A DNA stretch of 33,427 bases, taken from contig JAUHYR010000026.1 of NCBI GenBank assembly GCA_030426475.1, forward strand, positions 1-33,427. The letters run 5' to 3'. Source of the stretch: Bacteroidia bacterium (GTDB taxonomy: Bacteria > Bacteroidota > Bacteroidia > Flavobacteriales_E > Vicingaceae). A program made the position numbers and the translations under genes. Below, piece after piece: positions 3,611 through 27,790 of the stretch (positions are counted from its first letter, which is position 1; the number at the start of each line of letters is the position of its first letter). The notes below the pieces were generated by a model that worked only from the letters and a program-made list of their open reading frames with translations, was not told the DNA's origin and made no database searches.

Positions 3611-4648
3611 CTATCTGCTCTGTGAATAAACTTCCCATTTTTGAAGAAGTTGTTTCATGTCATCAGGTAGTTCAGAATTAAATTCTAAAAACTCACCAGT
3701 CTTTGGGTGTTTAAACCCTAATGTTTTTGCGTGAAGCGCATGACGTTGACAAATGTTAAAGCAGTTTTGTACAAACTGTTTATACTTTGTAAATGTTGTT
3801 CCTTTTACAATTCTGTTGCCGCCATACTCTGTGTCATTAAACAATGGGTGGCCGATATGTTTAAAATGCGCTCTTATTTGATGTGTTCTTCCGGTTTCTA
3901 ATTTACATTCTACATGTGTTATATAGCCGTATCTTCTGATTACTTTATAATGTGTAATAGATATTTTTCCTTTTTCTTCGTCATCATAAATCTGCATTAT
4001 TTTTCGGTCTTTCTGACTTCTGCCAATGTATCCTGTAATTGTTCCTTCGTCTTCTAAAACGTCTCCCCAAACAATTGCCTGGTAAGTTCGTTGGCTAGTT
4101 TTATTAAAAAACTGATTGGCTAAATGAGTTAGGGCTTCATCAGTTTTTGCTACTACCATTATACCGCTAGTGTTTTTGTCAAGCCTGTGAACTAAGCCGG
4201 GTCTTGGAAATGGTCCGTCTTGTTTAGGTAAGTTTTCAAAGTGATAAATTAATGCATTTACCAGTGTGCCCGTACAATTGCCAAATCCCGGATGAACTAC
4301 AAGTCCGGCTTCTTTATTTATAACAAGTACTTCATTGTCTTCATATAAAACATCAAGAGGAATATTTTCAGGAATTAACTCAACTTCTCTTGGAGGATAA
4401 GGAAGTACGATTGAAATTTCTTCACCGGGTTTTACTTTATAATTTGGTTTTACAATTTTTCCGTCAACTAAAATATTGCCTGATTTTGCGGCATTCTGAA
4501 TTCTGTTTCTGGAGGTGTTGGGAATTCTATCGATTAAGAACTTATCAATTCGTAGGAGTTCTTGCTTTTTATCAACCTTGTATTTATAATGTTCAAATAA
4601 CTCTTCTTCTTCAGAGTTCTCAATATCTTGGGAATTATCTTCTGACAT
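3611..4648 (-). CDS. rluD: RluA/RluD-family 23S rRNA pseudouridine synthase
   Basis: 345 residues: an acidic N-terminal leader, an S4 RNA-binding domain (about 31-83) and the pseudouridine synthase domain. The signature HRLDKNTSG contains the catalytic aspartate at about residue 157, and the later ETGRTHQIRAH motif is typical of the RluA family. The enzyme isomerises uridine to pseudouridine in RNA; RluD members act on 23S rRNA helix 69. The start overlaps the stop of the upstream T9SS-sorted protein gene by one base (TAATG), which suggests translational coupling. RluC-type specificity cannot be excluded from the sequence alone. Confidence 0.9.
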   Translation of the reverse strand: MSEDNSQDIENSEEEELFEHYKYKVDKKQELLRIDKFLIDRIPNTSRNRIQNAAKSGNILVDGKIVKPNYKVKPGEEISIVLPYPPREVELIPENIPLDVLYEDNEVLVINKEAGLVVHPGFGNCTGTLVNALIYHFENLPKQDGPFPRPGLVHRLDKNTSGIMVVAKTDEALTHLANQFFNKTSQRTYQAIVWGDVLEDEGTITGYIGRSQKDRKIMQIYDDEEKGKISITHYKVIRRYGYITHVECKLETGRTHQIRAHFKHIGHPLFNDTEYGGNRIVKGTTFTKYKQFVQNCFNICQRHALHAKTLGFKHPKTGEFLEFNSELPDDMKQLLQKWEVYSQSR

Positions 4649-6504
4649 TATTTTGCGATGATGAATTTCTTTGTTGTAGTAGCTGATTTATCGTCAAAAA
4701 CGGTAATTAAATAGATACCATTTTGAAGATGAGAAACATCAATTTGGTTGGTGAAGTTAGTTTCCAGAATTCTTTTTCCGCTTAAATCGGTAATAGCTAT
4801 TTTTTTATTGGGAGAAATAATTCCATTAATATTTAAAGTATTACTGGCAGGGTTTGGATAAACAGTAAAATTAATTTCCTGTATATTTTCTTCTTTAATA
4901 GTTACCGATGGATTTATTCCGTTTCTAAATTTTGGTCGCATTAAAAGTGAACCTTTGAAGCTAGTGTTGGTCCATGTTCCTGTAGCGTTATAATAAATGT
5001 TTGCTGAGTTGTCATTGTTGTAGTCAAAACCTACATTCATAGGAGCAGCAGTAATTTTTTCGTAGCCTATGTAAAACGAACCGGATACAATTACGGGAGA
5101 TGAAAATCTATATTCCACAAACTCGCCTAAGAAAGTATATATTGGATTTACAACTACTGCTTCTTGGTAAATAGGTGTATTCAAGTCATTACTCCATACT
5201 GTTAACTTTAATGAAGCACTGCTCATATTGTCTCTTAAAGGCGACCAATAAATATACATACCAGTTAAAGTATCTTGAATTTTAGAGCTAAATCTATAGG
5301 CCGCTTTAGCTCCAATGCCTTGTAATCCCCAGGCAACTTCAGCAGTTCCATCATCTCTGGAATAATAATCGCCAAAGACTTGATAGGTGATAAACGTGTC
5401 ATTTTTAGTATGAAAATCGAATTTTTGAGCTGAAGTTTTGTCAAGTGTAAAATAGTTTTGAATCATGAATCGATATGTCTTCCTGTTATTTGTAGGAAAA
5501 TAGAAATCATTAGCTGTAGGTCCGGGAGGAGTGGGTTTGTAAACTTCATTAATTACGTTTACACTATCATTAGGAGCAACCGTAAAAAACGGGTCTTGTC
5601 CAAAAACCGGTTGTTCTTCTATTTGTACTCCGGTACTATCATATACCTTGTATTTGTAATTAATAGCATATCCTGCACTGTTATCATAGTTATAAACTTT
5701 GGTACGGAGCAAATCAATCATATTATTTATAGTGTCTGCTTTATAATGCCACCAAGGCATTGATTTATAATCTTTGATAAAGCTATAGTCTCTATATTTA
5801 TGGGTAACATCTTTTTGTTTGGTGTCTCCTTTTGTTCTTCCCTGATTAAGATAGATGTAATCTACATGCCAATGATCAACATTTCCACATAAAGTGGCAT
5901 AGTTCTTAAACCGAAACTTAAATCCATCTTTCTGAAACATGGTGTCAACAAAAAGCATTACTTGTTTAAAATCGTGAACGGGTGCACCTTTTACCGACCA
6001 TTTCCAATGCCATTTATTTGTGGACGGATTATAAAACTCAAGAGTTAGAGAATCTTCGCTTTCGGGTTGATTGCCCAATCCTTGTGGCTGATACCAAAAG
6101 CTTATATAAACAGAATCTGTTAGTCCTGATAAAAAGAAAGGCTTTGAAGTCATGTAATCAGCAATACCCTTTGCTACCGGATTAGTAAAGTTATATGGAT
6201 ATCCGGTTGAATCTAGTCCGTCAAAAGTTGCTACACCGTAAGAATGCGGATTTTTTGCCATACTCGCATTCACATATACATTAATATCAGTCCATTTAGC
6301 GGGGTCAGGGAAGTAGTAATATTTTGTAAAATCTTCCATAAAAGGAACGGAGAGTGTGTCATTTCCTGCCTTTTGATTTTTTATGGCTTGAAATTCTTTA
6401 TGATAGCCAAACAAAGCTTTGTTGTAATCTAGGTCATAAATGGCTTCTTGGGCAATAAGAAAGCCGGATGCAAAAAGAAATAGTATAAAAAAGGTTTTTC
6501 TCAA
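4648..6504 (-). CDS. T9SS-secreted protein with type A C-terminal sorting domain
   Basis: 618 residues with an N-terminal signal peptide (FILFLFASGFLIAQ) and a C-terminal sorting domain (about 545-618). The latter shows the standard pattern: FTVYPNPASNTLNI, then KIAITDLSGKRIL, then LQNGIYLITV and a Lys-rich end. The body contains jelly-roll-like stretches (FFLSGLTDSVYISFWYQPQG, LTLEFYNPSTNKWHW) that suggest a carbohydrate- or surface-binding beta-sandwich, but I see no catalytic motif. Expected to cross the inner membrane by Sec and the outer membrane by T9SS, then be released or anchored at the surface. It lies 4 bases downstream of the PASTA gene. Function beyond secretion is unknown. Confidence 0.88.
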   Translation of the reverse strand: MRKTFFILFLFASGFLIAQEAIYDLDYNKALFGYHKEFQAIKNQKAGNDTLSVPFMEDFTKYYYFPDPAKWTDINVYVNASMAKNPHSYGVATFDGLDSTGYPYNFTNPVAKGIADYMTSKPFFLSGLTDSVYISFWYQPQGLGNQPESEDSLTLEFYNPSTNKWHWKWSVKGAPVHDFKQVMLFVDTMFQKDGFKFRFKNYATLCGNVDHWHVDYIYLNQGRTKGDTKQKDVTHKYRDYSFIKDYKSMPWWHYKADTINNMIDLLRTKVYNYDNSAGYAINYKYKVYDSTGVQIEEQPVFGQDPFFTVAPNDSVNVINEVYKPTPPGPTANDFYFPTNNRKTYRFMIQNYFTLDKTSAQKFDFHTKNDTFITYQVFGDYYSRDDGTAEVAWGLQGIGAKAAYRFSSKIQDTLTGMYIYWSPLRDNMSSASLKLTVWSNDLNTPIYQEAVVVNPIYTFLGEFVEYRFSSPVIVSGSFYIGYEKITAAPMNVGFDYNNDNSANIYYNATGTWTNTSFKGSLLMRPKFRNGINPSVTIKEENIQEINFTVYPNPASNTLNINGIISPNKKIAITDLSGKRILETNFTNQIDVSHLQNGIYLITVFDDKSATTTKKFIIAK

Positions 6505-6508
6505 TGTG

Positions 6509-7354
6509 TTATGGTTGTGAAGATTCTTGTAATGCTTTGTCTAACGAATCTTTTAACGATTTATTGAATTGAACTTTAGAAGTATCTTTAGTTAACCAAA
6601 TATTTACTACTCCACCCATGTTTAGAGCGTTGTAAGCCGAAGGATAAGGTATTTGTTTAAATATTTTTGCTGCTGCACTATCTTCAGAGGTAAAAACAGT
6701 TAATGAATCAAAACTGGCAGCGCCAACATTTAAACCTATATTTCCCAACGTTTGATTAGCCTCATCATAAGTCATATTAATTAAATAAGGAATGGCTACT
6801 AATTCACCTGTTTGTCCGGCTCCAACCATAATATTTACTGTTGTTCCAATTTTAATTGGAGTACCCGGTTCTATTTGTTTTCCGTTCACTTCCCAACCTA
6901 AAATATAACCGGCATATTCACTTGGTTTTGGAATTACTTTTCCCAGTTTTAGCCTGCTTCTGGTTATTTTGTCTATTGCTAATCTTTGTGAAAGGTCTTG
7001 TAAATTAGGTATTTTAACTGTTTCATCTCCTAAAGCATTAATTTTAATATAAATGGTTCTGTTGCTTTTTACTAAAGTGTTTGGCGCAGGATTTTGTTCT
7101 AAAATACTTCCTTTCGGTTCTTTGCTATTGTAAATAGAATCTGAAACAGCATATTTTAGCTCTTTGTCTTCTAAAAATGATTCAAGTTCTGATATGGTTA
7201 AGCCTGTTAGGTCAGGAACAGTTATTGTTTCTCCATGATTCGTAAAAACATCTAAATACTTGAATATTCCCCAGATTACTACTACTACAAATAAAGCCCC
7301 AAGCCCTAGGTTAACAAAAAATGACTTACTTTTTATAAACTGAATAAAACTCAT
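6509..7354 (-). CDS. PASTA-domain membrane protein
   Basis: 281 residues with one N-terminal membrane helix (about 15-31, LGALFVVVVIWGIFKYL) followed by three PASTA repeats (about 40-108, 112-180 and 184-260). The starts ITVPDLTGLTISEL, VKIPNLQDLSQRLA and VAIPYLINMTYDEA are typical. PASTA domains in other phyla sit on Ser/Thr kinases and class B penicillin-binding proteins and can bind peptidoglycan or muropeptides. This protein has no kinase or transpeptidase domain. It is divergent from the D-Ala-D-Ala ligase gene, and I recall this PASTA/Ddl/RluD neighbourhood recurring in Bacteroidota. A structural or sensory role at peptidoglycan is inferred. Confidence 0.88.
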   Translation of the reverse strand: MSFIQFIKSKSFFVNLGLGALFVVVVIWGIFKYLDVFTNHGETITVPDLTGLTISELESFLEDKELKYAVSDSIYNSKEPKGSILEQNPAPNTLVKSNRTIYIKINALGDETVKIPNLQDLSQRLAIDKITRSRLKLGKVIPKPSEYAGYILGWEVNGKQIEPGTPIKIGTTVNIMVGAGQTGELVAIPYLINMTYDEANQTLGNIGLNVGAASFDSLTVFTSEDSAAAKIFKQIPYPSAYNALNMGGVVNIWLTKDTSKVQFNKSLKDSLDKALQESSQP

Positions 7355-15045: not shown

Positions 15046-15366
15046 ATGGAAACTAAGAATAATAGATATGCGACACTTACTGAAGCAACAGAAAAGTTAA
15101 AAGAAAGAGGATTTACTCATAACTTTGAAGTGGATAAAGAAGGTCATCTTAAGGATGAAGATGGAAATGTGTTTTTTGTAGCACAAGTTCAGTTGGAAGA
15201 GTTTCACCGGTTTGAAGGAATGACCGATCCCGGAGATACTTCTATTGTATATGCTTTAAAAACAGATTCCGGAGGTAAGGGAATTGTTATTGATGCTTAT
15301 GGAGCAGATGCCTCTAAACGTACAACCGATTTTTTAAATAAAATAGAACAACATCAGTATCAGTAG
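15046..15366 (+). CDS. Small conserved Bacteroidota protein of unknown function
   Basis: 106 residues, soluble, without signal peptide or membrane helix. The pattern LTEATEKLKERGFTHNF, VQLEEFHRFEGMTDPGDTS and VYALKTDSGGKGIVIDAYG matches short proteins I recall as common in Bacteroidota; some databases label them phosphoribosylpyrophosphate synthetase, but the protein is far too short to be that enzyme and shows no PRPP-binding loop. It lies between the nitroreductase and the mechanosensitive channel genes (gaps of 21 and 19 bases), suggesting a small stress-type operon. Function unknown. Confidence 0.75.
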   Translation: METKNNRYATLTEATEKLKERGFTHNFEVDKEGHLKDEDGNVFFVAQVQLEEFHRFEGMTDPGDTSIVYALKTDSGGKGIVIDAYGADASKRTTDFLNKIEQHQYQ

Positions 15367-15385: not shown

Positions 15386-16284
15386 ATGGAATTTATAAAT
15401 ACAGTTAGAGATAGGTTAATTGATTATTGGGAGTTGTTTTTAATGAGCATTCCCAAGATTGCTATAGCTATTTTAATTATTTGTGGATTTACTTTAATAG
15501 CTGTGTTTGTGGCTAAGATTTGGAAAGAAAGGCTATCTGGACAAAGTGTAGAAAACAAACTGGTTATAAACTATATTATTAAGCTAGTAAAGGTGCTGAT
15601 AATATTGTCGGGAATAATTTTAGGGCTTCATACCTTAGGTTTTAGTGGTATTGCCGGAGGATTGCTTGCCGGAGCAGGCGTTGGAGTTATTATATTAGGT
15701 TTTGCATTTAAAGAAATTGGTGAGAATTTTATAGCTGGTGTTATTTTAGTATTTGATAGGCCATTTAACATTGGTGATATTGTTACTATTAATGGTAATA
15801 TGGGTAAAGTGGTTAATCTTTTGTTTCGTTCGCTTCATATTAAAACATTAGACGGAAAGGATGTATATATACCCAATTCAAAGGACATTAATAGCGCGAA
15901 CTATATAATCATACACAAGATGGCTTTTTACGGCATGAGTTTATTATTGGTATTGATTATAACGATGATATTGAGCTTGCAAAAAAGGTAGCATTAATGG
16001 CTATTAACCAAAATCCGAAAGTTCTTAAAAATGAAAAATCACAAGTATTGGTAGATAGTTTTGGTACTAATTCGGTTAATTTAAAAGTATTGTTTTGGGT
16101 GTTAACAAAGGACTATAAGGTATCTGCAAATGCCATTAAAAGTGAGGTAATGAAAGATGTGAAAAATATGCTTCAGGCAAATGAAATTGGATTACCTGCC
16201 AATATTCAGGAAATAAAGATGTATAATAAAAAAGAGCCTATTTTAGTTAGGCTCTTTCAAGAGAATTCTTCTAAAAAAGAATAG
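15386..16284 (+). pseudogene. mscS: MscS-type mechanosensitive channel split by a two-base frameshift
   Basis: The first frame (15386-15991) encodes three membrane helices (about 20-42, 62-86 and 90-118), the pore-lining Gly/Ala helix AGGLLAGAGVGVIILGFAF and the start of the beta domain (FDRPFNIGDIVTING, DVYIPNSKDINSANY). It then runs into nonsense residues. The frame +2 bases on continues the family sequence exactly (NHTQDGFLRHEFIIGIDYND, LAKKVALMAINQNPKVL) to the stop at 16284, through 15997-16284. Removing one TA from TATATA at about 15902-15907 restores a normal 298-residue protein, which identifies the break. MscS channels release solutes on hypo-osmotic shock. Either the gene is newly broken, variable, or the read has an error. 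Confidence 0.9.
16231..16257 (-). terminator. Terminator of the leftward SPOR operon, inside the mscS 3' end
   Basis: Perfect 10-bp stem, AAAGAGCCTA and TAGGCTCTTT, with a seven-base loop. On the minus strand it is followed by CTTTTTTATTAT, a good U-tract, 30 bases after the stop of the small secreted-protein gene. It lies within mscS codons near the C-terminus. Confidence 0.8.
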
Positions 16285-19477: not shown

Positions 19478-20245
19478 CTACTTTCCAAATTCTCTCAATC
19501 GAATGGCGGTAAGTACTTTTTTGGTGTAAAGCGGGAAATCTCCGTTCATCATCCAACTGTAGTAAGAAGGGTCATTTTTTAATACTTCGGCTACGGTTTT
19601 TCCTTTGTGTTTACCAAAGTTAAATACTTCTTTTCCGTCTTTATTAAATACGATACGTCCCATTAAATCAGCAGAATCATGCATTTTAGAAAATTTTTCT
19701 AAATAATCTACACTGGGTTCAAGGTCATTATATTTTTCCAGCTGGGCTTCTAATACTTCATAGGTGGCTTTAATGTCAGCTTCAGCACTATGCGCATTTT
19801 CTAATGATTTATCGCAGTAAAACTTGTAAGCGGCAACCAGTGTGCGCTGCTCCATCTTGTGAAAAATGTTTTGTACATCTATAAATTTTCTGTTTTCAAA
19901 ATCAAAGTCTACTTCTACTCTTAAAAATTCTTCTACTAAAACAGGAATGTCAAATTTATTGGAGTTATAGCCCGCTAAATCACAATTTTTTAAGAAAACT
20001 AAAAGTTCGGGAGCTATTTGTTTAAAGGTAGGAGCATCTACAATATCTTTATCATAAATACCATGAATCTCAGATGATTCATTAGGTATAGGCATTTCAG
20101 GGTTTACTCTTTTGGTGTAAGTTTCTTTGGTGCCGTCCGGTAAAATTTTTAAGATGGAAATTTCTACTATTCTGTCTTTTGCGGTGTTAACTCCTGTTGT
20201 TTCTAGGTCAAAAAAGGCTAGGGGCTTGTTTAGTTTTAAATTCAT
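19478..20245 (-). CDS. DnaQ-like DEDDh 3'-5' exonuclease
   Basis: 255 residues. The Exo motifs are all present: FFDLETTG (Asp 13, Glu 15), AGYNSNKFDIPVL (Asp 99) and ENAHSAEADIKA (His 152, Asp 157). A C-terminal module at about 208-240 (FNFGKHKGKTVAEV, DPSYYSWMMNGDFP) resembles the small quaternary-structure module found in similar Bacteroidota exonucleases. Proofreading- or RNase T-like 3'-5' exonucleases of this type degrade single-stranded ends. The start overlaps the stop of the PD40 gene by one base (TAATG), so translation is likely coupled. Confidence 0.9.
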   Translation of the reverse strand: MNLKLNKPLAFFDLETTGVNTAKDRIVEISILKILPDGTKETYTKRVNPEMPIPNESSEIHGIYDKDIVDAPTFKQIAPELLVFLKNCDLAGYNSNKFDIPVLVEEFLRVEVDFDFENRKFIDVQNIFHKMEQRTLVAAYKFYCDKSLENAHSAEADIKATYEVLEAQLEKYNDLEPSVDYLEKFSKMHDSADLMGRIVFNKDGKEVFNFGKHKGKTVAEVLKNDPSYYSWMMNGDFPLYTKKVLTAIRLREFGK

Positions 20246-21777
20246 TAGTTAGGGCTAAGGTTAAAATCTTTCATGATAAAGTCTTGAAAATCACTTTTTC
20301 CGAGAATGGTTAATTCTCCTGCATAAGGTTTGTATCCGTCAACATCTATCAAAATCTGATATTTTCCGGGAGATAAAATCATTATAAAATCTCCTTTGTC
20401 ATTTGACTGGTAACTGCCGACTTCTTCTTGTGTGTTTAAATCTATTACAGAAATAAAGCCTATGCCAGCACCGGAGCCTGTGGCATTTTTTAGACTTGAT
20501 TTTACAACGGCTTTTCTGGTGTCTTTTTCTACATACCTAACTCTATAAATATCTTGATAACCATAAGAGTCTTCTCTCCAACGAGCAACGTAAGCGTAAT
20601 CTTCATTTGCGGTAAAACTTATGCTCATATTATCACCTGTTGAATTTAACGGATATCCTAAGTTCTCTGCCTGGCTCCATTCATTATATTCAGGATTCCA
20701 GGTAGATTTAAAGAGGTCATAACCTCCAATGCTATTGTGTCCTTGTGATGAAAAGTAAAGCGTTTGACCATCAACAGAAAGTACCGGAAAATCTTCTTCA
20801 AATTCAGTATTAATAGTTTCAGGAAGTTTTTGTGATAATCCCCATTTACCATTAGGTAATTTTCTTGTCATGTAAATGTCTTTGCTTCCTTTTTTATCCT
20901 TTCTGGCAAAGAAAAGTGTATTGCCATCGGGCGAAAGTGTTGCGGAGCTTTCAAAATCTTTTGAATTTACACTTTCTTCAAACTTTATTCTTTTATAGAA
21001 TTTCCCTTTTTTCCAATCGCAGTAATAGATGTCTCCGTATTCTGAAATATGGTCGATATAGACAAACATTTGTTGTCCGTCAGAGGTTAATCCTACACAT
21101 TGTTCATCTAGCGTAGTGTTTACCATACTACCGGCATTTTCAGGAACGCCAAACTGTCCTGATTGAACGGAGGAAATCCAAATGTCAGAAGAATAATATC
21201 CGTCAAACTCTATGGCGCTTCCTTTGTTATCTTTTCTTCTGGACGTGAATACAATCATTGATTCTGCTGAGTCTATAAATGGATTATATTCTGGGTAATT
21301 GCTGTTAATATTTGGGCCTAAGTTTTCAAATTCAACTTCTAATGGATTTTTTGTCAATTCTCTTGCATTTTTTACCCATGAGATGGAAAGTTCAATTTCA
21401 TCATCAAAGTTTCTTTTTGAGATGGACTTATATTTATTAAGTGCTTCTTCTGCTTTATCTAACATTAAAGCATGATGATAAGCTCTGCCTAGCCAATAAT
21501 GTGCATCAGAATTGTCCGGTTCAAGGTCAACAGCTTTTTCTAAATAAGGAATAGCTTTTTTTCTGTCCATTTCAATATGCATAATACTAAAACCTGCTCT
21601 ATATTGAAATAAAAAAACATCGGGTTGGCTTTTAACCAGTTTTGAATATAAATCTAAAGCAAAAGGGTAGTTGGTGTTTTTAAAATGCTCGTCAGCATCT
21701 GCAGGGTCTTGGGCAGATGTAACCTGAACAAAAAGTATTGTGAATATGAATAAAATGGTATGTTTAAAAAATCTCAT
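20245..21777 (-). CDS. TPR-PD40 propeller-CRD protein lacking the OmpA domain
   Basis: 510 residues: signal peptide (about 1-22, ending TSAQ), TPR part (about 25-125), about five WD40-like PD40 repeats (about 160-415; YPEYNPFIDSAESMIVFTSR, SATLSPDGNTLFFARKDKKG, PVLSVDGQTLYFSSQGHNSI), then a carboxypeptidase-regulatory-like domain to the end (SYQSNDKGDFIMILSPGKYQ). It has the front three domains of PorE-type T9SS/OmpA proteins but stops at the CRD. It starts a unit with the exonuclease and a small membrane protein. Function unknown; probably periplasmic protein-protein binding. Confidence 0.88.
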   Translation of the reverse strand: MRFFKHTILFIFTILFVQVTSAQDPADADEHFKNTNYPFALDLYSKLVKSQPDVFLFQYRAGFSIMHIEMDRKKAIPYLEKAVDLEPDNSDAHYWLGRAYHHALMLDKAEEALNKYKSISKRNFDDEIELSISWVKNARELTKNPLEVEFENLGPNINSNYPEYNPFIDSAESMIVFTSRRKDNKGSAIEFDGYYSSDIWISSVQSGQFGVPENAGSMVNTTLDEQCVGLTSDGQQMFVYIDHISEYGDIYYCDWKKGKFYKRIKFEESVNSKDFESSATLSPDGNTLFFARKDKKGSKDIYMTRKLPNGKWGLSQKLPETINTEFEEDFPVLSVDGQTLYFSSQGHNSIGGYDLFKSTWNPEYNEWSQAENLGYPLNSTGDNMSISFTANEDYAYVARWREDSYGYQDIYRVRYVEKDTRKAVVKSSLKNATGSGAGIGFISVIDLNTQEEVGSYQSNDKGDFIMILSPGKYQILIDVDGYKPYAGELTILGKSDFQDFIMKDFNLSPN

Positions 21778-21841
21778 GAATTGCCTATCGCCAAAAATTA
21801 TACCATTTGCGAATATAACTTAATTTTTTTGTGCTAAAAAC

Positions 21842-24034
21842 TTATAGCATACTTTTATTTATGATATTAATTTGAACCCTTCTGTTTTTACTTCTTCCTT
21901 CAGGATTATCCTCTCCGGAAGGTAAAGTATTTGGAGCGATGGGTTGGTCGGCACCGTCCCATTTAGTTGAAATTCTTTGGCTAATAATACCGTTTTTAAG
22001 TAAGTATTTTTGAGCAGATATTGCCCTGCTTTTCGATAGTTTATTATTATAAGGCTCGTCTCCTAATCCATCTGCATGACCTATCAATTCTACTTTTAAA
22101 TCAGGATATTTTTTTAGATATTTAATTACTAAGTCAAGTTCAGATATAGCAGAGTCTGTTAAAAAACTTTTATCGAAATGAAAATAAATGTTTTCGATGT
22201 TTGGATAGTCCATTGAAACATTCTCTCCGGCTAATTGAAGAGTGTCAATATTTGCAATATGCTTATGAGTTAAAATACCTTCATTATCAATTTCATTGTA
22301 AATAAAAGAGATGTTTTCCTGTTCTTCTTTTGATAGATTTGGAATGATAAGGTTTGAATCAATTTGGCTTTGCTTCGGAGTTTTAATAAGTGAATGGATG
22401 GTAGCAATTTCTCTGTATAGTTTTCCTGTTGATGATTTAATAGGCTTTAAAGTGATTAATTGAAATATCTCTGTTTGGTTAACTTCTTTAGGGATGTTAA
22501 ATTCAAGTTGATGAGATTCATAGCCTTCGGCATTTATTTCAATAAAGTAGTTTTGTCCGCTTTTTATTTCATCAACATGGTATCTGCCGTTTGATGGCGA
22601 AGTAACTAATGTTTCGGATTGATTATTACTTGATAACTTTAATGAAGTTCCAATTGGTTTACCGGTTTCGCTATCATAGATTAGGCCTTTTAAGGCTAAT
22701 AGTTTCGTTTCATCAGATTCTCCAAATTGATAGATGTCCATATCTCCAAGCCCCTTGGTTCTGTTTGAAGCTAAAAAGCCTGTATTTTCATCCTTTGTAG
22801 TAATAAAGAAAATATCATCTGCGGCTGAATTTATGGGTAAGCCTAAGTTTATCGGTTCTGAAAAGGAGTAGTTTTCACCAATCTCAACTTTAAACACATC
22901 ATAATTTCCAAAGGAATTGTGACCTCTTGAAGAAAAATAAAGCATTTTTCCGGCTTTTGAAATAAAGGGGGCATCTTCATCTTCTGAAGTATTTATTTTT
23001 TCTCCCAAATTTATGGGTTCGCTCCATTCTCCTTCACTGATTTTTTTACAGTAATAAATGTCTTTACCGCCATAGCCATTTTTTTTGTTGCTGCTAAAAT
23101 AAATGGTGTTGCCATCAGGGGAAATGGCAACACTGGGTACGTGAGTTTTCTTTTCATTAATTTGAAGAGGAAGTTTAACAGGAGTTGTCCATTTATCGTT
23201 TTCATATTTAGACTCCCACATTTGAGCGTCTTTATATAAATACAAGGTATTTCCGTCAGTAGAATACATTACTGCAGCATCATGAAATTTTGTATTTATA
23301 GATTCATAGATATATTTTTCTGCATTAGCCTTATCAATTAATGCCCATGTGTTATTTTGTTTTGTAGCTATGTAGATGTCTTCATAATATTTTGAGTCAT
23401 AAGAAATTTTTCCACCGGTACTTCCTTTTCTTCTTGATGTAAATAGTAGTATGTCAGATTCAGGTTTTTTAACCGGAGCATAATCAGCATATTCTGTATT
23501 AAGTGAAGTTATGTTTTCAATTTTAATATTGTTTTTTTCTTTTTGCTGAATTGCGTAGTTATTGTTGTCTATTATTCTATTTATTTCATTTTTTAATTGA
23601 TCGCCACCAGGCGTTGATGCTAGGTAGTTTTCAAACTTTTTTAAAGTGAGAATACTTTCATCAAATTGATGGTTGTAATGATAAAGTTTTCCTAAATAAT
23701 AAAATGTTTCGGGAATAGTGTCTTTTTCAAATTTGCTAAGCGATTTTTTAAATAAGACTATACCTTCTTCTCTGTTTTTCTGAGAGAAATAATAAGCTAA
23801 ACCAGCCTCAAAGTAATAAATAGCTTTATCAGGGTTTAGTTCAATTAATTCCTTATAATTTTCTTTAGACTTATCGTATTGTTCAGCGATTAATTGTTTT
23901 TTCGCTTTACGATAAATTTTCTTTTCATTTTGAGATTTCCCATTAATAAAACAGCATAAAAATAACAGGAAAAGGATAGCTCTGAAGCTATCCTTTAATA
24001 AATTAGTTGTTTTTTTTGATACTATTTGGCCCAA
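21842..24034 (-). CDS. TPR-PD40-CRD-OmpA protein (PorE-like)
   Basis: 730 residues. After a signal peptide (about 1-35): TPR (about 38-150), PD40 propeller (about 180-437; SPDGNTIYFSSNKKNGYGG, SKAGKMLYFSSRGHNSFG), CRD (about 445-530), then an OmpA domain (about 613-725) with the peptidoglycan-binding pattern GHADGLGDEPYNNKLSKSR, Asp 655 and Arg 670 intact. This is the architecture of PorE, the P. gingivalis protein tying the T9SS to the wall, but many paralogues exist, so the call is PorE-like. The start overlaps the preceding gene by 13 bases, and a hairpin at 23971-23996 falls in its first codons. Confidence 0.88.
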   Translation of the reverse strand: MGQIVSKKTTNLLKDSFRAILFLLFLCCFINGKSQNEKKIYRKAKKQLIAEQYDKSKENYKELIELNPDKAIYYFEAGLAYYFSQKNREEGIVLFKKSLSKFEKDTIPETFYYLGKLYHYNHQFDESILTLKKFENYLASTPGGDQLKNEINRIIDNNNYAIQQKEKNNIKIENITSLNTEYADYAPVKKPESDILLFTSRRKGSTGGKISYDSKYYEDIYIATKQNNTWALIDKANAEKYIYESINTKFHDAAVMYSTDGNTLYLYKDAQMWESKYENDKWTTPVKLPLQINEKKTHVPSVAISPDGNTIYFSSNKKNGYGGKDIYYCKKISEGEWSEPINLGEKINTSEDEDAPFISKAGKMLYFSSRGHNSFGNYDVFKVEIGENYSFSEPINLGLPINSAADDIFFITTKDENTGFLASNRTKGLGDMDIYQFGESDETKLLALKGLIYDSETGKPIGTSLKLSSNNQSETLVTSPSNGRYHVDEIKSGQNYFIEINAEGYESHQLEFNIPKEVNQTEIFQLITLKPIKSSTGKLYREIATIHSLIKTPKQSQIDSNLIIPNLSKEEQENISFIYNEIDNEGILTHKHIANIDTLQLAGENVSMDYPNIENIYFHFDKSFLTDSAISELDLVIKYLKKYPDLKVELIGHADGLGDEPYNNKLSKSRAISAQKYLLKNGIISQRISTKWDGADQPIAPNTLPSGEDNPEGRSKNRRVQINIINKSML
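23971..23996 (-). terminator. Terminator/attenuator-like hairpin at the start of the 730-residue PD40 gene
   Basis: Perfect 11-bp inverted repeat, AAAGGATAGCT and AGCTATCCTTT, with loop CTGA. On the minus strand it is followed by a pyrimidine-rich run (CCTGTTATTTTT), like an intrinsic terminator. It lies 26 bases past the stop of the upstream paralogue and inside the first 22 codons of the next. Confidence 0.6.
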
Positions 24035-26388
24035 ATCTTAACGTATTGGAATTTTTCATAAAGAAGCCTATTTTCTTTAAAGTCGTTTTTATAATCAGGA
24101 CCTTGAACCATACTATTTAATTTTCCAATTTGTATCTGTTCATCTTTTAAGCCTTTTGATTTAAGAGATTTAACAAAAAGGTCTTTGGCATCGTTTGCTC
24201 TTTTTGTTGCTAAATCTTTATTATTAGCGTAACTACTTGTAGGAACTTTTGACGCACTAGATTCTATCGTAATAGTAATTTTTCCTTTTGCTTTTACTAT
24301 AGCTTCACAGTCAGATAAAAACTTTTTAAATGATTCTTCAGAAGTTCTAATGCCTTTGGCATTATATTCATAGAATTTCTCATAATAGGCTTGACTAACA
24401 CTAACATTAGTATTTGTGTTATTATTAGTATTAGTATTGTTATTATTGTTTGTGTTATTTGCTGTCTGTTCGTCATTAACTATTACCGTAACCTTTGCAT
24501 TTGAGCATTTAGAAGGCTCATAAATGTCACATATTTCATACACAAACTCATCTGTACCCACAAAGTCAGTTTTAGGAGTGTAGCTAAAGTCTCCATCTTT
24601 TCCCATTGTAACACTTCCGTTAGCTGCTTTTGTTACTAACTTTGTATTTACATTCATGGCATCTCCATCAGGGTCTTTGTCGTTTTTAGCAACGTTACCA
24701 CCTACAGGAGCATTTTTCATTGTTATATATTGGTCAGCATTTGCAATAGGGGCATTATTGGTTTCTCCTTTCGGTCTAGTTCCAAAAATGATTGGTTTTA
24801 AATTAATTCCTCTGTCAATTTCTTGATATCCTGAACCTTCAGGCACATAAATATCTTCTTCATAACTGAATGGGTCAGACTCATATAAGAAGTGATAATC
24901 ACTGCCCGGAGGAATAATAATAGAGAATCGACCATCTTTCTTTCTAGGTTTATATATACCAACAGTTTCACCGGTATTGTTGTCAGTAACAACTATTCTT
25001 GCATTTTCAGGTAACTCATCATAACCAACTACTTCTATTCGTCCGACTAATAATGTTAAATCTTTTTCTTTTTGACCTGATAAGTCAAGCATGTATATAT
25101 CTTTTTCTCCAAAACCATCTTCTCTGAAAGCGGTGTAGTATGCTCTTTGCCCATCGGGTGTAGTGATAAAAAATACATCGTCATCTGTAGTGTTAATTGG
25201 ATAGCCTAAATTAATTGGTACTCCCCAAGTCTTTAAGTTATCATCCCACTCTGTGTAAAATATGTCAAAACCACCTATACTGTTAGGTCCATTTGAGCTA
25301 AAATACATGGTTTTTCCATCAGGATGCATAAATATTCCGTCTTCATCAAATTTGGTATTGATTGCATCTCCCATATTTTGTGCTAATGCCCATTGTCCGT
25401 TAGGTAGTTTTTTACAGAAGTAAATATCCATTCCGCCTTTTCCGCCTTTTCTATCACTTGTAAAATAAATGATGTTTCCATCTAATGAAATGTCAGCATG
25501 GGTTTCATACGAAGTTTCGTTTATGTTAGAACCAAGCTTAACCGGTGTAGACCAAATGTCTCCATCTAATGTACTCATGTATAGGTTTCCATCTCCATCA
25601 TCATCTTTATAAATAAATAGAGTTTGTCCGTCTTTAGATAAATTGATTGTTGCTTCGTGTCCTGATGTATTAAGGTTTGGAACCAGTTCCGGTTCTCCCC
25701 ATTCATTATTGTCTTCTTTATACGAAACATAAATATCTTCAAAGAACCCACCATCTCCGTCATCTTTGGTATAAAGATTCGAGCTATCATTTCTTAACCT
25801 TCTGGATGTAAAAAACAAAAGTCTTTCATCTACTGATATAACAGGAGAGTAGTCAGGGTATTCAGTATTTATTTTGCTACCTAAGTTAGTGGCAGTAATT
25901 TGTACAGGATTTTTAATAGCTTCCTTGGCATTATTACATTGAATTAATCTCATTTGAGCTTCATCATATAAATAATGTTTGTCTGTAATAGCTTCTAAAA
26001 ACTTATTATACTCAGCTATTGCTTCATCAATATTATTAGTTAAGTGATAGGCCCAGCCTAAATAATAATGAGCGTCCATTGGAGATTTTTTCTCATTATA
26101 AGAAAATGGGTCGTAATTTTTTGTTACTCCCTGAACTGCTTTTACTAAATAGTCTTTGGATAGTTTTTTTTGATTTGGAGAGTATAAGTAACAAATACCT
26201 ATCTTGTAATTAATGTTATAATTTTCCGGATTGTCTTTTGTTAAACTAAGCCATATTGGTAAAGCCTGAGAATGAAAATTCTCTTCCATTAACTGATTTG
26301 CTTCCGTAAAGCTTTTACGAAATGAATCTTGGGCAAATGAGGTAGCCACAATTATAATAGCACAGAATAACGAAAAGACTTTTTTCAT
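24022..26388 (-). CDS. TPR-PD40-CRD protein with cadherin-like and degenerate OmpA-like domains
   Basis: 788 residues from the ATG at 26388 (MKKVFSLFC); the frame runs back to 26502, but a promoter box at 26411-26418 supports the later start. Order: signal peptide (1-19), TPR (about 25-150), PD40 propeller (about 178-432), CRD-like domain (about 443-535), a cadherin-like Ig domain (about 545-637; PIANADQYITMKNAPVGGNV, DGDFSYTPKTDFVGTDEFVY), an Asn/Thr linker (about 641-662) and an OmpA-like end. In that end the usual GH(A/T)D aspartate is missing (IESSASKVP), although an LATKRA arginine remains. Likely periplasmic or outer-membrane associated; upstream partner of the 730-residue paralogue. 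Confidence 0.87.
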   Translation of the reverse strand: MKKVFSLFCAIIIVATSFAQDSFRKSFTEANQLMEENFHSQALPIWLSLTKDNPENYNINYKIGICYLYSPNQKKLSKDYLVKAVQGVTKNYDPFSYNEKKSPMDAHYYLGWAYHLTNNIDEAIAEYNKFLEAITDKHYLYDEAQMRLIQCNNAKEAIKNPVQITATNLGSKINTEYPDYSPVISVDERLLFFTSRRLRNDSSNLYTKDDGDGGFFEDIYVSYKEDNNEWGEPELVPNLNTSGHEATINLSKDGQTLFIYKDDDGDGNLYMSTLDGDIWSTPVKLGSNINETSYETHADISLDGNIIYFTSDRKGGKGGMDIYFCKKLPNGQWALAQNMGDAINTKFDEDGIFMHPDGKTMYFSSNGPNSIGGFDIFYTEWDDNLKTWGVPINLGYPINTTDDDVFFITTPDGQRAYYTAFREDGFGEKDIYMLDLSGQKEKDLTLLVGRIEVVGYDELPENARIVVTDNNTGETVGIYKPRKKDGRFSIIIPPGSDYHFLYESDPFSYEEDIYVPEGSGYQEIDRGINLKPIIFGTRPKGETNNAPIANADQYITMKNAPVGGNVAKNDKDPDGDAMNVNTKLVTKAANGSVTMGKDGDFSYTPKTDFVGTDEFVYEICDIYEPSKCSNAKVTVIVNDEQTANNTNNNNNTNTNNNTNTNVSVSQAYYEKFYEYNAKGIRTSEESFKKFLSDCEAIVKAKGKITITIESSASKVPTSSYANNKDLATKRANDAKDLFVKSLKSKGLKDEQIQIGKLNSMVQGPDYKNDFKENRLLYEKFQYVKIWAK
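24403..24468. repeat. AAT/AAC-rich trinucleotide tract coding an Asn/Thr linker
   Basis: Imperfect repeats on the plus strand of the form ATTATTAGTATTAGTATT code for alternating Asn and Thr on the minus strand (about 22 residues). Such tracts are flexible linkers and prone to slippage in whole codons. Confidence 0.75.
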
Positions 26389-26410
26389 GAGGTTTTTGTT
26401 ACAATTTCTA

Positions 26411-26418
26411 CAAATATA
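26411..26418 (-). promoter_or_regulatory. Putative -7 promoter box for the PD40 pair (TATATTTG)
   Basis: Exact TAnnTTTG match on the minus strand, ending 22 bases before the ATG at 26388. It supports that start over the longer frame. Confidence 0.5.
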
Positions 26419-26437
26419 TCTTTTTTCGATAAAATCG

Positions 26438-27790
26438 CTAGATTTCACGATTAATGTCCCAATTTTCAAGATATTCAGCAACCTTTTTAACAAAAGAACC
26501 ACCTAATGCTCCGTCAACAACTCTATGGTCGTATGCATGAGACAGAAACATCATATGTCTGATTCCTATTGTATCTCCGTAAGGGGTTTCAATAACAGCC
26601 GGTTTTTTTCTGATTGCTCCAACTGCCAAAATAGCAACTTGTGGTTGGTTAATAATAGGTGTTCCCATAACGTTACCAAATGTTCCAACATTGGTTACGG
26701 TATAAGTTCCTCCTTGAATTTCATCGGGTTGTAGTTTATTTGCTCGTGCTCTGTTGGCCAAATCATTTACGGATTTTGTTAATCCAATTAGGTTTTTTTG
26801 GTCTGCATCTTTTAATACAGGCACAATTAAGTTTCCACTTGGAAGAGCTGCAGCCATTCCTAGATTAATGTGTTTTCTTTTAATTATTTTGTCTCCGTCA
26901 ACAGATACGTTAACCATCGGGAAATCTTTAATTGCTTTTATAACGCATTCAAAAATTAGAGGTGTAAAGGTTAACTTTTCGTTTTCTCTTTCTGCAAACA
27001 CTTTTTTCATTTTGTTTCGCCACATTACTAAATTAGTAACATCAGCTTCTACATAAGATGTGACGTGAGGAGAAACATGCTTGGACATTACCATGTGGTC
27101 AGCAATAAGCTTTCTCATTCTGTCCATTTCAATAATTTCATCACCATCCATTAGTGTTACTTTAGGCGCTTGGTGAGAGGAAGCTGTAGCTTTTTGCGTT
27201 TGAGGAGTTGAAGATGTAGTTACCGAACTAGCACTGGAGGTTCCATTTTGGCTGGCGGTAACAGTTTTACCTTTGTTAGGAATATAAGCAAGAATATCTG
27301 ATTTTGTTACTCTTCCGTCTTTTCCTGTTCCTTCGATACTTTCCAATTCCTGAATAGAAATTCCTTCAGCTTTAGCAATACTTCTCACTAATGGTGAGTA
27401 GAATTTTCCGGATGATGAAACTCTCTCAATGTTTGTAGCTCCTTTCTGAATATCAACAACAGCAGTTGGTTGAGTTTCAGTTTTTTTGGAACTTACTTCG
27501 GCTTTAGCCGGAGAAGTTGTGGTTGGTTTTTCAGTATTTTCCGCTGCTGCTTCTGTTTCAATGATTGCAATTGCCTGCCCAACTTGAACAACATCACCTT
27601 CATTAAATAATTTTTTCTTTAAAACTCCTTCAGTGGTAGAAGGAATTTCTGAGTCTACTTTATCAGTTGCGATTTCTAGTACAGACTCTTCTGCATCAAT
27701 TTGCTCTCCTTCTTCTTTTAACCATTTAATAATGGTTGCCTCAGCAACACTCTCACCCATTTTGGGCATCATTAATTCTATCTCAGCCAT
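26438..27790 (-). CDS. 2-oxo acid dehydrogenase dihydrolipoamide acyltransferase (E2)
   Basis: 450 residues: a lipoyl domain (about 1-77; ATDKVDSE with the lipoylated Lys at about 44), a Thr/Ser/Ala linker, a peripheral-subunit-binding domain (about 131-166; YSPLVRSIAKAEGISIQEL, GKDGRVTKSDILAYI) and the catalytic domain (about 215-450; YDHRVVDGALGG, His 422 and Asp 426). The long linker and lone lipoyl domain match branched-chain (BkdB-type) or 2-oxoglutarate E2; neither E1 nor E3 is in the window, so the substrate is not settled. It has its own promoter-like box at 27817-27824. Confidence 0.92.
   Translation of the reverse strand: MAEIELMMPKMGESVAEATIIKWLKEEGEQIDAEESVLEIATDKVDSEIPSTTEGVLKKKLFNEGDVVQVGQAIAIIETEAAAENTEKPTTTSPAKAEVSSKKTETQPTAVVDIQKGATNIERVSSSGKFYSPLVRSIAKAEGISIQELESIEGTGKDGRVTKSDILAYIPNKGKTVTASQNGTSSASSVTTSSTPQTQKATASSHQAPKVTLMDGDEIIEMDRMRKLIADHMVMSKHVSPHVTSYVEADVTNLVMWRNKMKKVFAERENEKLTFTPLIFECVIKAIKDFPMVNVSVDGDKIIKRKHINLGMAAALPSGNLIVPVLKDADQKNLIGLTKSVNDLANRARANKLQPDEIQGGTYTVTNVGTFGNVMGTPIINQPQVAILAVGAIRKKPAVIETPYGDTIGIRHMMFLSHAYDHRVVDGALGGSFVKKVAEYLENWDINREI

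Follow-up and report, generated by a model that had tools for sequence, protein, structure and literature searches.

A probable ordinary frame break in an MscS-family channel gene of a Bacteroidia bacterium

The window analysed here is the whole stretch of 33,427 nucleotides of contig JAUHYR010000026.1, from a Bacteroidia bacterium of the Vicingaceae. On its plus strand, at 15386-16284, we found an MscS-family gene that begins in one reading frame and finishes in another (Table 1), and no continuous reading frame runs through it. The first open reading frame (the N frame) shows homology to relatives over residues 1-169, ending at base 15892, and its final 32 residues are out of frame. The second frame (the C frame) overlaps the first from 15895 to 15991 with a shift of -1 (or +2), and its earliest in-frame ATG, GTG or TTG codon is at 15997. 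As given, the sequence carries an inactivating lesion, the frame change at 15893-15900.

Table 1. Features of the split MscS-family gene in the window
Feature	Position	Strand	Remarks
N-frame ORF	15386..15991	+	201 aa; ATG 15386; stop TAG 15989-15991
C frame	15895..16284	+	129 open codons after stop 15892-15894; terminal stop 16282-16284; PF21082
Preferred site of the frame change (AGCGCGAA)	15893..15900	+	net two bases longer than relatives
TATATA run named in the first-pass annotation	15902..15907	+	C-frame homology already covers this run

In Pfam, the N frame matches PF00924 (beta domain) with 63.1 bits (cut-off 20.2, profile positions 4-64 of 68), and the C frame matches PF21082 (C-terminal domain) with 51.2 bits (cut-off 21, positions 2-87 of 88). 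Both scores exceed their cut-offs, and the split gene belongs to the MscS family by descent. The conserved TM helix PF05552 reached 19.5 bits, below its cut-off of 22. For comparison with relatives we used the best 80 of at least 521 encoding places confirmed in a scan of genome contigs, and both gene parts lie in one open frame in 79 of these 80. Against a profile built from these 79 unbroken sequences, the N frame scores 209.6 bits at positions 9-175 and the C frame 138.3 bits at positions 177-303. Since both match adjoining parts of one profile, the two frames are not a product of chance. The first-pass annotation had likewise read them jointly as one MscS protein. It had also given the second half the whole C-terminal beta domain; this half does carry PF21082, but nearly all of PF00924 falls in the first half.

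The strongest matches among the best 80 of at least 521 relatives are all MscS-family channels of Bacteroidota. They come from Bernardetia sp. MAG-102 (L027; identity 60% in the N half and 60% in the C half), an uncultured Flavobacteriales (L028; 55% and 59%) and Crocinitomix catalasitica ATCC 23190 (L026; 54% and 54%). All three have the same domains as the window gene, but hold them in a single frame where the window has two. These matches point to a source of the window within the Bacteroidota, probably in the Flavobacteriales. At an E-value of 1e-25, a class-level search of 395 genomes gave 18 matches outside the own genome and a family-level search of 46 genomes gave four; all of them sit in open frames, of 266-326 aa and 283-301 aa respectively, and two genomes occur in both match lists. 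The genomes listed for the family comparison included no other member of the genus to which the window belongs. Since only 5 of the 46 family genomes, the own genome included, contain an orthologue at this threshold, the gene looks accessory. A family search with the C half alone gave matches in 12 of 46 genomes, own included. Three of the 11 matches outside the own genome contain one stop, which is probably the natural end of the gene with the match running on past it.

The one remaining relative of the 80, from Ulvibacterium marinum CCMM003 (L092), belongs to the same gene family and is also broken in the same region. Its break sits at a run of eight T (6522-6529), about 25-35 bases further down than the break in the window. 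A run of seven T is present in this region in nine of the 79 intact relatives among the best 80 of at least 521, and eight T in none.

The first-pass annotation had attributed the break to one extra TA in the TATATA run and noted that deleting one TA restores the frame. The arithmetic does join the frames, but the evidence places the change upstream of the run. N-frame homology ends at residue 169, corresponding to profile position 175, and C-frame homology runs from base 15898, corresponding to profile position 177. The spacing between the PNx and NxT/S motifs at the junction is eight residues in 79 of 79 intact relatives (of the best 80 of at least 521), so that the window, with 29 bases against 27 in these relatives, is net two bases longer.

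Switch points between the frames were scored in profile bits and in BLOSUM bits against three sets of relatives: all 79, the top 3 and the top 10. For the full set, C-frame starts at 15895, 15898 and 15901 gave -11.4, -11.9 and -11.1 profile bits, and placements in the TA run gave -16.9. The top 3 and top 10 relatives put the best C-frame start at 15895 or 15898. The margin of the best placement over the TA run is moderate, at 5.8 (all 79), 4.8 (top 3) and 7.2 (top 10) profile bits, or about 2-3 bits in BLOSUM terms. One of the main reasons favouring the upstream placement is junction column 7, which suits the C frame: the relatives have V (68), L (9), I (1) or A (1), and the window reads L in the C frame and N in the N frame. 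A blastn alignment with L027 opened a single two-base gap at 15894-15895. The alignment with L028 spread several gaps across the junction, again net two bases, and pointed to no single place. In blastn, TATAATCATAC, which includes the end of the TA run, is common to the window, L027 and L028.

Slippage in the TA run was rejected as the place of the change, the C frame already being the better match upstream of the run in both the switch scoring and the L027 alignment. Neither TATATA nor ATATAT occurs in the 27 junction bases of any of the 79 intact relatives among the best 80 of at least 521. TATATA occurs 23 times in the window, so its presence near the break means little. Judged from these alignments, the location in the TA run is probably wrong.

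Every switch placement scored below zero on the profile of all 79 relatives, and the junction therefore fits poorly wherever the switch is put. The window residues K-D, after PNS and just upstream of the break, match relatives poorly; at junction column 2, V, I or L stands in 79 of 79 intact relatives and D in the window. Given this poor fit, more than a single two-base change may have taken place. Reasoning by hand, we arrived at an alternative in which one base may have been lost and one extra codon gained upstream, in place of two extra bases.

The short dinucleotide repeats at this site, GCGCG at the break and TATATA just downstream, raise the idea of phase variation, in which slippage in a TA or GC run would toggle the channel on and off. 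However, both repeats are very short, the window holds 30 TA-type runs of 6-8 bases and two GCGCG, and neither motif is found in the junction of the 79 intact relatives (of the best 80 of at least 521). There is no long simple repeat at the break beyond these two. Neither of the two papers listed by a literature search on phase variation and frameshifting of MscS has these terms in its title or abstract. We consider phase variation very improbable. Programmed ribosomal frameshifting, which would join the N and C frames during translation, would be compatible with the -1 (or +2) shift and the overlap of the frames, but the N frame contains no strict X_XXY_YYZ heptamer, and late slippage within the overlap would swap out conserved residues. 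Moreover, the break is not common to relatives, 79 of the best 80 of at least 521 having one frame and the remaining one being broken elsewhere. We give this explanation practically no credence.

We also compared the two halves for signs of decay. The pN/pS values of the window against L026, L027 and L028 were 0.40, 0.36 and 0.46 for the N half and 0.40, 0.34 and 0.44 for the C half, and those among the three relatives themselves were 0.21-0.50 and 0.19-0.42; with synonymous sites already close to saturation (pS 0.62-0.77), this comparison rules out only long decay. At columns conserved in at least 95% of sequences, the window keeps all 10 in the C half and 27 of 31 (0.871) in the N half, where the lowest of 79 relatives keeps 0.903. 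At the 90% columns it keeps 31/36 (N) and 18/20 (C), and at the 80% columns 38/49 and 26/32, within the range of the relatives. The four losses at near-invariant N-half columns are mild changes (D57N, F63Y, L86F, D110E), and the shortfall could reflect divergence or some decay. The earlier statement that the halves are otherwise undamaged thus holds for the C half and for pN/pS values like those of relatives, but not fully for the N half, which falls below all 79 at its near-invariant positions. As there is little sign of further decay, the break is either recent or not real.

The second of these options is that the draft genome has a wrong base count here and that the organism itself carries an unbroken gene. 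This would fit a draft assembly of 139 contigs, the scant sign of decay in either half and the intact gene in 79 of the best 80 of at least 521 relatives. Sequencing errors are commonest in homopolymers. The break, however, lies outside homopolymers, the longest in the gene being three A6 runs located elsewhere. Three domain families in the same genome gave 0/31, 0/19 and 0/22 matches with an internal stop or complementary pieces in two frames, in a test that is small and insensitive, includes partial matches and would miss the window's own break. Among 25 other proteins of the window, 19 have a Pfam match, and none is split between frames. We regard an assembly or consensus error as a serious possibility, short of an even chance.

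In another reading, the N-frame product would work by itself, as a short channel lacking the C-terminal domain. In the PDB, MscS-family chains of 171-174 residues (9bgt, 9bgq, 9bgu, 9sed, 9sdg, 9sdb) match the N half; they may be natural short forms or constructs. According to PMC11262690, microsporidian MscS2 retains only TMH3 and the beta domain. The beta domain is kept and the C-terminal part reduced both there and in the N product of the window. However, MscS2 has also lost membrane helices and is an established short form, whereas in the window the C-terminal part is present and conserved in the other frame.

PMC11262690 also reports that E. coli MscS stays active without the beta-barrel, but is not inserted into the membrane when both cytoplasmic domains, the beta-barrel and the alpha/beta domain, are missing. 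An MscS without residues 266-286 still protects cells, as stated in PMC4440785. Loss of function is therefore expected for the N-frame product, from which the C-terminal domain is missing altogether. This product also bears 32 residues of unrelated sequence. The conservation of the C frame, close to that in relatives, points to a recent break. A working short channel is very unlikely. There is likewise just a slim chance that the lineage alternates between full-length and short versions of an MscS-type channel, or gets by on the 201-residue form functioning as a channel.

We judge, with moderate confidence, that this is an ordinary MscS gene whose frame was recently lost by a small change near 15893-15900 that added two bases net, and we lean weakly towards such a real change over an assembly error. 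The first-pass annotation had proposed a recent break or a sequencing error and rightly ranked phase variation last, and the evidence allows the first two. In the proposed course of events, the small change broke an otherwise ordinary channel gene and would truly be present in the cells that were sequenced, or in a fraction of that population. The N-frame product would retain the membrane portion and almost the entire beta domain and, lacking the C-terminal domain, would not be expected to form a working channel. The C part, with no start codon close to where it begins, should not yield one either. The genome contains seven genes bearing PF00924, including the split gene, and the other six lie in frames of 298-423 aa. 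These six further matches make the loss plausible, and other MscS-family genes in the genome would let it be tolerated.

If the break is real, one more accessory osmotic valve has been lost in a genome that keeps several. The split gene is probably an ordinary frame break in a common pressure-relief channel gene. For annotation, it should be marked as disrupted, and the idea of TA slippage should be dropped. Comparison of both frames with relatives can shift a supposed slippage site off a neighbouring repeat.

As to a viral origin, a protein scan of viral contigs, which finds close relatives only, returned no relative. We also compared ten neighbouring genes with 85 loci at an E-value of 1e-5, with at most about 1.5 kb of flank at five of these loci. 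Three genes had any match: the 106-aa gene in L055 and L092, a nitroreductase in L089 and the gene at 20245-21777 in L084. Since only three of ten neighbours match anywhere in the 85 loci, there is no shared neighbourhood. The 106-aa gene (15046-15366) lies just upstream of the split gene and matches neither Pfam nor NCBIfam; its homologues are found near the MscS gene in two of the 85 loci (L055 at 5164-5442, L092 at 3844-3587).

Elsewhere in the window, the single Pfam match of a 618-aa protein encoded at 4648-6504 is a C-terminal Por_Secre_tail sorting domain. On the minus strand, at 20245-26502, three consecutive genes have matches to PD40 propeller repeats and TPR; one of them has an OmpA domain, and bacterial Ig/cadherin-like domains are found in one.
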